Below are positions 37,517 to 40,721 of a DNA stretch of 46,720 bases, piece by piece. Below the pieces are notes generated by a model. The model was not told the origin of the DNA and made no database searches. It saw only the letters and a program-made list of their open reading frames with translations. Where the stretch lies: positions 46,830-93,549 of IMG/VR virus record IMGVR_UViG_3300029448_000005; one strand, given 5' to 3'. Position numbers and translations under genes: made by a program. Positions within the stretch are counted from its first letter, which is position 1, and each line of letters opens with the position of its first letter. This stretch comes from a virus.

Positions 37517-37726
37517 ATGAGTTTTTTAACAGAAATGCTATCGAGTGATGCTAAGATATCTTCAAAGAGAACTGTCGGCTTTGCCGCTTTCTTTATGCTG
37601 ATTTGTAGTTGGGGTGCTGACACCTTTTCTGCATTCGAGGTAAAAGATAAGATATTGGAATGTTTTATGTACATATCCGTGGTAGGTTTAGGAGTTACAG
37701 CTGCAGAAAAGTTTGGTAAAAAATAG
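37517..37726 (+). CDS. Small two-helix membrane protein, holin-like
   Basis: 69 residues; ATG 37517 is 11 nt after gp19, with GAGGAG upstream. Two hydrophobic stretches are visible: residues 18-40 (TVGFAAFFMLICSWGADTF) and about 49-63 (ECFMYISVVGLGVTAAEKF), separated by a short charged loop, with a basic GKK end. Size, two membrane helices and the SKRTVGF...AAEKF frame resemble small phage holins, which open the inner membrane for lysis. No endolysin is in the window to support this. It sits among tail genes, where a membrane protein could also serve tail assembly or DNA entry. Confidence 0.65.
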   Translation: MSFLTEMLSSDAKISSKRTVGFAAFFMLICSWGADTFSAFEVKDKILECFMYISVVGLGVTAAEKFGKK

Positions 37727-37760: not shown

Positions 37761-38507
37761 ATGGCAGAAGTTAAATTCCCTACGGAAGTAGTGGACCTGC
37801 CGTCACAGGGATTATTATATCCAAAAGAAAGTCCACTATCTGGTGGTACAATAGAAGTTAAATATATGACGGCAAGAGAAGAGGATATCCTCACATCGGC
37901 TAACCTCATAAGAAAGGGTATAGTTGTTGAAAAGTTATTAGAAGCACTAATAGTAGATAAATCTATAAAAGTAAATGATTTACTGATTGGTGATAAGAAT
38001 GCAGTTCTTATAGCTGCTCGTATTCTAGCATATGGTAAAGAATATAATGTAGAGTATAATGGACAACAGTTAGTGGTTGATTTAACCTCTTTAAAGGATA
38101 AGAACTTAGATGAGAGTAAAGTATCTGCTGGTGTAAATGAATTTGAGTTTGAACTACCTGCTACCAAAAGAAAACTAACATTTAAACTACTTACTTCAGG
38201 TGATGAGAAAGAGATTGATAAAGAAGTGAATGGTTATAAGAAAGTCGGTGATGGTATTGGATATGAGCTTACCACACGTCTAAAACATCAGATAATTTCC
38301 ATTGATGGTGATACCAAAAGAGCTAGTATTAATAGCTTCGTTGATAATGAATTTTTATCGAGAGATTCCATAGCATTCAGAAATCACGTGAGTGATATAA
38401 TGCCGGATGTAGATATGACATCTACCTTTACAGATTCAGAAGGAAACGAAAAGGAGTTTACGGTCCCTATGACCGTTACGTTTCTTTGGCCTTCCGCCGG
38501 AGTATAA
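37761..38507 (+). CDS. gp26: gp26-like baseplate/tail-assembly protein
   Basis: 248 residues (T4 gp26: 208). ATG 37761 with AGGAG at 37750-37754. The N-terminus VDLPSQGLLYPKESPLSGGTIEVKYMTAREEDIL is the signature of the T4 gp26 family, followed by NLIRKGIVVEKLLEALIVD, LLIGDKNAVLIAARILAYG and a C-terminal domain rich in Lys/Glu. In T4 the protein is needed for the central hub; in tails generally, the gene pair just before the tape measure encodes chaperones that hold the unassembled tape measure. The gene ends MTVTFLWPSAGV. Near its end (TTTCTTTGG, 38481-38489) a +1 shift would enter a second conserved-looking frame that has no start of its own. Confidence 0.85.
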   Translation: MAEVKFPTEVVDLPSQGLLYPKESPLSGGTIEVKYMTAREEDILTSANLIRKGIVVEKLLEALIVDKSIKVNDLLIGDKNAVLIAARILAYGKEYNVEYNGQQLVVDLTSLKDKNLDESKVSAGVNEFEFELPATKRKLTFKLLTSGDEKEIDKEVNGYKKVGDGIGYELTTRLKHQIISIDGDTKRASINSFVDNEFLSRDSIAFRNHVSDIMPDVDMTSTFTDSEGNEKEFTVPMTVTFLWPSAGV

Positions 38508-38706
38508 AACAGAACTACACGAACAAATATTCCAAATAAGTTTCAATTCACAGGGAATGCTATCATTCTCAGAATTGTATAACATGCCTATTTATCTTAG
38601 GAAATTTTACTTTAAAAGGTTACAAAAACATTATAAAGAACAAAATGAAGAGATAAAGAAGTCTCAGCAGAAAAACAAAAGCTCACATCCTTCATTTAAA
38701 AAATAA
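38473..38706 (+). CDS. gp51-like/tail-assembly chaperone extension, probably made by frameshifting from gp26
   Basis: This frame (+1 relative to gp26) opens after a TGA at 38470 and runs to TAA 38704-38706. It encodes FFGLPPEYKTELHEQIF, then FNSQGMLSFSELYNMPIY, LRKFYFKRLQKHYKEQNEE and a Lys-rich tail. There is no ATG, GTG or TTG before ATG 38557, yet protein-like sequence begins well upstream, overlapping the gp26 end by 35 nt. A slip at TTT (38481-38483) would join gp26 at ...VTF to FGLPPEYK. In many phages the gene before the tape measure makes such a frameshifted extension; in T4 the gene next to 26 is 51. Alternatively only a short protein of 49 residues starts at ATG 38557. The frameshift is inferred. 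Confidence 0.6.
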   Translation, partial: PLRFFGLPPEYKTELHEQIFQISFNSQGMLSFSELYNMPIYLRKFYFKRLQKHYKEQNEEIKKSQQKNKSSHPSFKK

Positions 38707-38730: not shown

Positions 38731-38764
38731 AATTCCACACAAAAATAATATATGGAGAGTATTG

Positions 38765-38953
38765 ATGGCTAGTAAAGAAGGTATGGTATTTAAGTTTTTT
38801 GAAAAATGGAAACAAAAAAGACTCAATAAATTTGCAAAGCAAGCGCTCAAAGATAATCCTAGCTTAGAAAAAACCCTAAGAAAAATGGATGATGATTATA
38901 AAGAATTAATAAAAAAATTAGAAAAACAACCAAAAAGAACACTTGATATTTAG
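38765..38953 (+). CDS. Small basic helical protein of unknown function
   Basis: 62 residues from ATG 38765; GGAG at 38754-38757 fits this start better than the TTG at 38762. The protein is almost all charged helix: VFKFFEKWKQKRLNKFAKQALKD, then SLEKTLRKMDDDYKELIKKLEKQ. No motif is recognised. It is the first gene of the unit leading into the tape measure, 10 nt before it. Basic helical proteins here may bind the tape measure or DNA; this is a guess. Confidence 0.6.
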   Translation: MASKEGMVFKFFEKWKQKRLNKFAKQALKDNPSLEKTLRKMDDDYKELIKKLEKQPKRTLDI

Positions 38954-38963
38954 GATATAAGTA

Positions 38964-40721
38964 ATGGCTTACAACAGTAAAGATTTAACTACTATAAGAG
39001 AAATGAACAAGGAGATGGACCGTCTTAAAGAGGTTATGGAATCTCATAATAAAACTACTAAAAGTTATAGGGATGCTTTAAAGGATGTAAGGAGTCTTTC
39101 AGCTGATATTAAAAATATAGAAGATAAACGAGCTAAAATCAACGCAGATTATCTAAGAAAATCTAACAATTTGAACATAGCTAAAAGTATAGAAAAATTA
39201 GAAAAACAGGGATTAGGAACTATTCAAAAAAGGCTCAATCTCACCTCAGACATAGAATATCTTAATAAATTAATAACAAACGGTACTGATAATCAGGTTA
39301 AAGATGCTGTAAAATATAATAAATTTTTGGATGATATCAATGATGGTTTAAGTTTAGCAGAAGTAAATCAAAGAATGGCTACAGAACATTTCGGTGATAT
39401 GCAAAGCTTTGCATCAGATTTAGTAAAGGAGTTAAATAAATCCGAAGATATATTAAAACAAATGGGAAAGGAAAAAAAGTTTGCAGATATGATAGACCAA
39501 GTAAAAGATACTCTTGGTATAATAGATTTAAAAAAGACATTTACATTTGCAGGATTATTGGCTGTAGCAGCTAAATTTGCTAGCAAAATATTTGAAGTAA
39601 GACAATCATTAGGAACATCTGCAGTTGAATCGGCTAGATTAGCTGGTAATATGTCAATAGCTGGAATGTCAGCTAAATTAGTTGGTGGTAGTTCACAAGA
39701 AGCTGAAAATGCAATAAGTGGTTTGGTAGAAGAGTTTGGTTCTCTTTCTGTAGTTTCTGCAGGCGTAGCTAAAGACTTAGGTTTGATGACAGGACAATTT
39801 GGTATAAGTGGTGCTAATGCTGCAAAATTACTTAAATCTATGGAGGCTATAAGTGGTGCTTCAATAGAAACAAATATAAATTTAATTTCATCAGTCGGTG
39901 AATTGGCTAGAGCAGAAGGGGTTGCTCCAGCACAGGTATTAAATGATATAGCTGAAAGTACGGAAATGTTTGCTGAATTTGCAAAGGATGGTGGACAAAA
40001 TATAGCTAAAGCTGCTATTGAAGCTAGGAAGTTGGGATTAAATTTAAGCACTGTTGCTGGTATAGCTGATAATTTATTAGACTTTGAATCTTCTATTGAA
40101 AAGGAAATGGAAGCCTCAATGTTATTGGGTAAACAGATGAGTCTTGATAAAGCTAGGGAACTAGCACTTACAGGTGATTTGGCTGGTTTGGCTGAAGAGA
40201 TTAAGAATCAAGTAGGTAGTCAAGCAGAGTTTGAGGCTATGAATGTAGTTCAGAGAAGAGCTTTGGCACAAGCTATCGGTGTTAGTGCTGCAGATTTAGG
40301 TAAGATAGTAGCTGGTGAAAAGACATCAGCTGAACTAGCAGAAGAACAGTCTAGACAAAAACAAAAGCAAATAGGTTTAGAAAAATTAGCAGCAAACGCA
40401 GCAATAATACAGGCTGTTGCTTCAATATCTGGTGGATTTGGTAAATTTGGTCCTTTGGGTATGGGTCTTGGAGCTGCAGCTATTATGGCTTTATACTCTG
40501 CTATCAAATCAGCTCCACAATTAGAAAAGGGTGGAGTTGTAAAACAAAGTGGTATGGCAGTAGTTCATAAAGGAGAAGCATTCTCAGGCACTAGAAATGA
40601 GATGGGTATGGGAATGGGACAAACAAATGGTTTACTAAAACAATTAATTAAACAGAATGAAATATTAATGAATAGATTAACTAACAAAGTAGGTGATATA
40701 GCACTTTCAAATGCTGTATAG
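38964..40721 (+). CDS. Tail tape measure protein (gp29 counterpart)
   Basis: 585 residues, close to T4 gp29 (590). ATG 38964 with AGGAT upstream. Residues 1-190 are coiled coil (KEMDRLKEVMESHNKTTKSY, KNIEDKRAKINADYLRK). Residues 193-211 (FTFAGLLAVAAKFASKIF) and 480-515 (AAIIQAVASISGG, then LGMGLGAAAIMALYSAI) are hydrophobic, as in tape measures that later enter the membrane. The middle is a long Ala/Gly/Ser helical region. Near the C-terminus EKGGVVKQSGMAVVHKGEAF is the typical tape-measure tail motif. It fixes tail length while the tube is built around it. Placement after gp26 and its frameshift partner supports this. By the usual rule of about 1.5 angstrom per residue, the tail would be near 88 nm, T4-sized. 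Confidence 0.8.
   Translation: MAYNSKDLTTIREMNKEMDRLKEVMESHNKTTKSYRDALKDVRSLSADIKNIEDKRAKINADYLRKSNNLNIAKSIEKLEKQGLGTIQKRLNLTSDIEYLNKLITNGTDNQVKDAVKYNKFLDDINDGLSLAEVNQRMATEHFGDMQSFASDLVKELNKSEDILKQMGKEKKFADMIDQVKDTLGIIDLKKTFTFAGLLAVAAKFASKIFEVRQSLGTSAVESARLAGNMSIAGMSAKLVGGSSQEAENAISGLVEEFGSLSVVSAGVAKDLGLMTGQFGISGANAAKLLKSMEAISGASIETNINLISSVGELARAEGVAPAQVLNDIAESTEMFAEFAKDGGQNIAKAAIEARKLGLNLSTVAGIADNLLDFESSIEKEMEASMLLGKQMSLDKARELALTGDLAGLAEEIKNQVGSQAEFEAMNVVQRRALAQAIGVSAADLGKIVAGEKTSAELAEEQSRQKQKQIGLEKLAANAAIIQAVASISGGFGKFGPLGMGLGAAAIMALYSAIKSAPQLEKGGVVKQSGMAVVHKGEAFSGTRNEMGMGMGQTNGLLKQLIKQNEILMNRLTNKVGDIALSNAV

Follow-up and report, generated by a model that had tools for sequence, protein, structure and literature searches.

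Frameshifting tail assembly chaperones (TACs), such as lambda gpG/gpGT, are made as a short and a long form by a shift near the 3′ end of a gene that precedes the tape measure, and the long form bears a C-terminal extension encoded in an overlapping frame without a start codon. Tail genes shift by -1, -2, or +1, and shifting of the G-T type has been described as conserved "except T4" (PMC5009743). T4-like TACs do exist, however, and Vladimirov et al. (2022), as relayed in PMC10885494 and PMC12846349, describe a -1 shift for some groups with a poly-T site and a short gene plus a longer fused gene, with no shift, for some other T4-like phages. On that secondhand account, TAC frameshifting in T4-like phages is already published and its kind is thus known. 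The first-pass annotation of the locus reported here held that no shift was established in T4; this is right for T4 itself, with its separate genes 26 and 51, but outdated for the wider T4-like group. A +1 shift is suspected for a tail gene pair of the haloarchaeal virus HSTV-2 (PMC5009743), also a myovirus pair of the G-T type, although in an archaeal virus; it is compared with our case here by its proposed direction. Finally, in a 70S system in vitro, hairpins juxtaposed to the E site stimulate +1 frameshifting and mimic an internal Shine-Dalgarno (SD) duplex, as Huang, Cho and Chang (2018) showed with designed constructs (PMC6321510). We found no case of a natural bacterial or phage +1 shift stimulated by an upstream hairpin in the literature searched.

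The window, i.e., the whole 46,720-nt stretch of viral DNA analyzed, very probably contains a TAC gene of the T4 gp26 superfamily that is decoded by programmed +1 ribosomal frameshifting, with synthesis of the long chaperone form apparently aided by a small RNA hairpin just 5′ of the shift site. All features lie on the + strand. The gp26-like short form, TAC-N (37761 to 38507; 248 aa), has the C-terminus TVTFLWPSAGV and ends at the zero-frame stop TAA 38505 to 38507. The +1 frame opens at 38473, right after TGA 38470 to 38472, and runs to 38703, followed by TAA 38704 to 38706; its first ATG, GTG, or TTG is ATG 38557. TTT CTT TGG (38481 to 38489) lies where the two frames overlap, and TTT CTT T (38481 to 38487) is the putative shift site. 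From 38485 to 38706, the +1 frame encodes the predicted extension TAC-C (FGLPPEYKTELHEQIF...FKK-stop; 73 residues), and the predicted TAC-N/TAC-C fusion has 314 aa, with EFTVPMTVTFFGLPPEYK as its junction peptide. When the stops, TTT CTT TGG, and ATG 38557 were re-read, all coordinates of the first-pass annotation proved correct. The tape-measure gene expected downstream is located at 38964 to 40721, its product giving a local match (E = 2e-20 over 123 columns) to the protein annotated as tail tape measure in Flavobacterium phage immuto. Two overlapping frames just 5′ of a tape-measure gene, the second without a conserved start, constitute a G/GT-type arrangement. Unlike lambda gpG/gpGT, which shifts by -1 on a heptamer, this locus would shift by +1 at UUU-Y, has a candidate upstream hairpin, and belongs to the T4 gp26 (PF12322) protein family. 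Two small ORFs lie nearby. One, of 63 aa (38762 to 38953), separates TAC-C from the tape measure and has no convincing family match; similarly placed small ORFs occur in Microcystis phage Mel-JY01 (L082:4030-4245) and in LR756508. The other, of 69 aa (37517 to 37726), sits between the tube gene and gp26, contains two hydrophobic stretches that give it a holin-like look, and has no PHROG match.

Relatives were collected by scanning viral contigs with the window protein (80 loci), by a profile scan that returned another 80 rows with a few repeats, and by tblastn, which retrieved isolates of Flavobacterium, Microcystis, Streptococcus, and Listeria phages and two huge metagenomic phages. The window, IMG/VR relatives, and five phage records together provided 138 non-identical intact junctions, with identities to the window gp26 as low as 26 to 27%. 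An equivalent arrangement is found in Flavobacterium, Microcystis, Rhodothermus, Bacillus, Listeria, and Streptococcus phages. In all 138 junctions, the C-terminal frame lies at +1, not -1, of gp26, is open across the gp26 stop, and remains stop-free for 26 codons beyond the slip site. The site itself reads TTTTTTT in 71 junctions, TTTCTTT in 62, TTTCTAT in 2, and TTTTTAT, TTTCGTC, and TTTTTTA in 1 each, so that in every one of the 138 the in-frame TTT precedes a C or T. UUU followed by a pyrimidine is reported to be a +1-prone site (Fu and Parker 1994; Schwartz and Curran 1997). In the 93.5-kb contig containing the window, TTTYTWTGGCC occurs only once. Both the slip site and the overlap of the two frames, whose conservation the first-pass annotation had proposed to check at gp26/51 junctions of related phages, are conserved throughout (138/138). 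The Phe-tRNA slip from TTT to TTC that it had suggested also agrees with the rarer variants: a next codon CTA, TTA, or CGT cannot slip, so that TTTCTAT, TTTTTAT, and TTTCGT fit a slip on the first TTT only. At these same loci, a prfB-like alternative with CTT-to-TTT slippage at the second codon is ruled out.

Assignment of TAC-N to the T4 gp26/gp51 TAC superfamily (PF12322) is supported by the match of the window gp26 to phrog_150 (E = 2.8e-9) and by the relatives RM378, LIS04, and GXN1, which exceed the Pfam cut-off of 24.5 bits, although the window gp26 itself falls just short of it with a PF12322 score of 22.1 bits. A Pfam search of the window's own genome gave no match anywhere and carries no weight either way. 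The AlphaFold model of the short form has a pLDDT of 91, and its fold agrees with that of the Bacillus phage SP-15 baseplate hub subunit (TM 0.83), whereas a Foldseek search of the PDB returned no significant match, HK97 TAC appearing only at E = 3.3. The structure of the whole fusion predicted from the single sequence was unusable (pLDDT 35). Turning to the second frame, a profile of the +1 frame aligned with that of the -1-group C-terminal domains, T4 gp51 among them (hhalign probability 92%, E = 5.7e-7), which indicates homology to the -1-frame TAC-C of cyanophages and to gp51 in its C-terminal part. The first-pass description of this frame as a chaperone-type extension is supported, whereas its gp51 likeness applies to the C-terminal part and not to the whole protein. 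In T4, 26 and 51 are separate genes, both with a PF12322 domain, and TAC-C is fused in frame in gp51. Campylobacter phage CP81 likewise carries a tandem pair of this kind, with TAC-C fused in frame to a TAC-N copy.

The slip site had been recognized at first pass, but not the hairpin upstream of it. In the window, the arms ACGGTC (38460 to 38465) and GACCGT (38471 to 38476) enclose the loop CCTAT, and the 4-nt spacer TACG (38477 to 38480) separates the hairpin (38460 to 38476) from the predicted P-site codon; in relatives having the hairpin, the distance from the stem end to TTT is mostly 3 to 6 nt. Compared with synonymous shuffles, the 27 nt 5′ of the site fold better: across 78 diverse loci the mean z is -1.48, and 55% of the loci reach p ≤ 0.05, whereas z is near 0 in 13 windows elsewhere in the gene. 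Among the 35 loci with less than 65% identity, the peak does not move (z -1.38; 57%). With G+C-matched nulls the signal is weaker yet persists, with z values of -1.08 and -0.89 as against -0.24 to 0.25 in the controls. A 7-pair stem is 89.5% paired across 45 loci, with 22 two-sided pair changes observed versus 7.3 expected (0/500 shuffles), and pairing drops to 16 to 49% when the stem is slid out of register. A second clade has its stem in a different register (98.6% paired). These statistics show that an RNA hairpin adjoining the E site is under selection and covarying. The window hairpin by itself does not reach significance (p = 0.085), so the case for it is comparative. About one-fourth of the diverse loci, among them both Firmicutes phages that were tested, have a weak hairpin or none, so that it cannot be essential everywhere. 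As for other elements, an SD stimulator was rejected because the distance of the AAGGAG motif, about 25 nt 5′ of the site, exceeds that of the RF2 geometry; most downstream windows had a slightly negative z with no clear peak at matched codon usage, and an Rfam search returned no match above threshold.

Under the mechanism that we propose, the majority of ribosomes would read gp26 through to TAA 38505 and release the short form. In some of them, peptidyl-tRNA-Phe on UUU (38481 to 38483) would slip forward onto UUC (38482 to 38484), after which decoding would go on in the +1 frame with UUU 38485 and GGC 38488, adding the 73 residues of TAC-C. The probable function of the short and long forms, as of gpG/gpGT in lambda, is to coat the tape measure and to recruit tube subunits. 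The hairpin, lying 4 nt 5′ of the P-site codon, probably refolds against the E site behind the ribosome and would there favor the forward slip, at the place taken by the SD duplex in the RF2 mRNA. As in Escherichia coli prfB (RF2), the P-site tRNA would re-pair one base forward, with a stimulatory duplex beside the E site; the duplex here would be an mRNA hairpin and the A-site codon is a sense codon, whereas in prfB the SD pairs with 16S rRNA and the A-site codon is a stop. The prfB duplex sits 3 nt from the site, compared with the 4 nt of the window. The hairpins of Huang, Cho and Chang (PMC6321510) likewise stand beside the E site, and +1 stimulation was demonstrated with them, but on CUUUGA without RF2, whereas the element described here is natural, covarying, and located at UUU-Y.

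Could the fusion arise during transcription instead? RNA polymerase, driven by the nascent hairpin, would lose a single U from the T-run, and the fusion would then be read by ordinary translation. We regard this as improbable, although the hairpin and T-run score as an intrinsic terminator, loss of one U from TTTTTTT would yield an identical fusion, and the geometry resembles that of the hairpin-driven slippage described for an IS element of Roseiflexus (Penno 2015, according to PMC5009743). What matters is how the RNA-DNA hybrid tolerates a one-base realignment. Only 1 mismatch results at the best TTTTTTT locus, but TTTCTTT, the site of the window and of about half of the junctions, does not tolerate it, with at least 3 mismatches, one of them rC:dA, and TTTCTAT incurs 5; a single rC:dA was already not viable in the Roseiflexus case (PMC5009743). 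Moreover, the hairpin is at least as common at TTTC loci (88%) as at TTTTTTT loci (67%). The mismatches at TTTCTTT and the frequency of the hairpin in TTTC loci favor translation for the window. Transcriptional slippage thus appears disfavored at TTTCTTT sites and stands as a rival for the TTTTTTT members.

Ribosomal frameshifting also has to be weighed against the second frame being a separate gene, with an internal start or restart at ATG 38557 or at a non-standard codon and no fusion, which we consider very unlikely. ATG 38557 is indeed present, 44 of the 138 loci have some nearer ATG, GTG, or TTG in the +1 frame upstream of slip+28, and Microcystis phage annotators gave the second frame its own CDS. 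However, the position of these codons is not conserved, and 94/138 loci have none of them upstream of slip+28, whereas the residues that precede ATG 38557 are kept: F-F-G-L straight after the slip site in 133 to 138 of the 138 junctions. From the gp26 stop to the first ATG, pN/pS over 35 ungapped sequences close to the window is 0.16 for the +1 frame, compared with 7.7 and 2.8 for the other two; this start-less stretch is under purifying selection. The in-frame fusions of the same domain to a TAC-N copy in T4 and CP81 point the same way. Among the 138 junctions, neither a conserved upstream start nor unconserved residues before the ATG, the observations named at first pass as speaking against a frameshift, was found. 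Three loci (L103, L114, and L131) have an ATG two or three codons 5′ of FFGL in the +1 frame, which makes independent initiation possible at those loci. A -2 shift as in Mu-type phages would end in the same frame, adding one extra residue to the TVTFFGLPP expected at the +1 junction, and would be permitted by TTTTTTT members, but it is scarcely credible because no -2 re-pairing at TTTCTTT or TTTCTAT, as read from the sequences, retains cognate contacts.

With a +1 shift as the preferred reading, the locus differs in direction from its -1 homologues. T4 26/51 and the -1 TACs of T4-like phages (Kyanoviridae, Emdodecavirus, and Ackermannviridae) share homologous TAC-N and TAC-C, but TAC-C is in the -1 frame in S-PM2, P-SSM2, HTVC008M, phiM12, and Vi01, and S-PM2-type junctions are -1 in 56/56 distinct cases, each with TTTTTTC at the site. 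No upstream hairpin is associated with this -1 group (0 to 3% of 29 loci), and T4 and CP81 use two genes. With TAC-C at +1 in every junction, our set falls outside the -1 TACs of T4-like phages; the +1 frame is also that of RM378, SP-15, and a relative of SP-15. In a tree of 63 TAC-N sequences, which includes some very long branches, a split with 100/99 support separates the -1 and T4 rows from the +1 rows. On the +1 side, the huge phage L274 (LR756511) seems to have TAC-C in the -1 frame near GGTTTTTTCTTCCC, at about 2195 to 2215; on this long branch, a second change of direction is possible. Two aspects look new to judge from these comparisons, namely, that homologous gene pairs would shift by -1 in cyano-, rhizobio-, and Ackermann-phages and by +1 here, and that a covarying RNA hairpin lies 3 to 6 nt 5′ of the +1 site and is missing from the -1 group. 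We somewhat favor the broader view that these loci represent a natural phage +1 class in which an mRNA hairpin refolding at the E site replaces the RF2-type SD duplex, and that they belong to a chaperone family with homologues shifting the opposite way.

In the deposited annotations of immuto (L081:3839-3949) and Mel-JY01 (L082:3737-3973), TAC-C is truncated or split off, and the Flavobacterium and Microcystis phage records, which lack the fusion, would need correction accordingly. The junctions gathered here make up a deep natural alignment for phage +1 frameshifting, in which both the slip site and a candidate 5′ stimulator lend themselves to direct tests. Within this family, one homologous gene pair would be expressed by a -1 shift, by a +1 shift, or as separate genes depending on the branch, and, if the hairpin works as we propose, it would be a natural counterpart of a mechanism that we found only in designed constructs.
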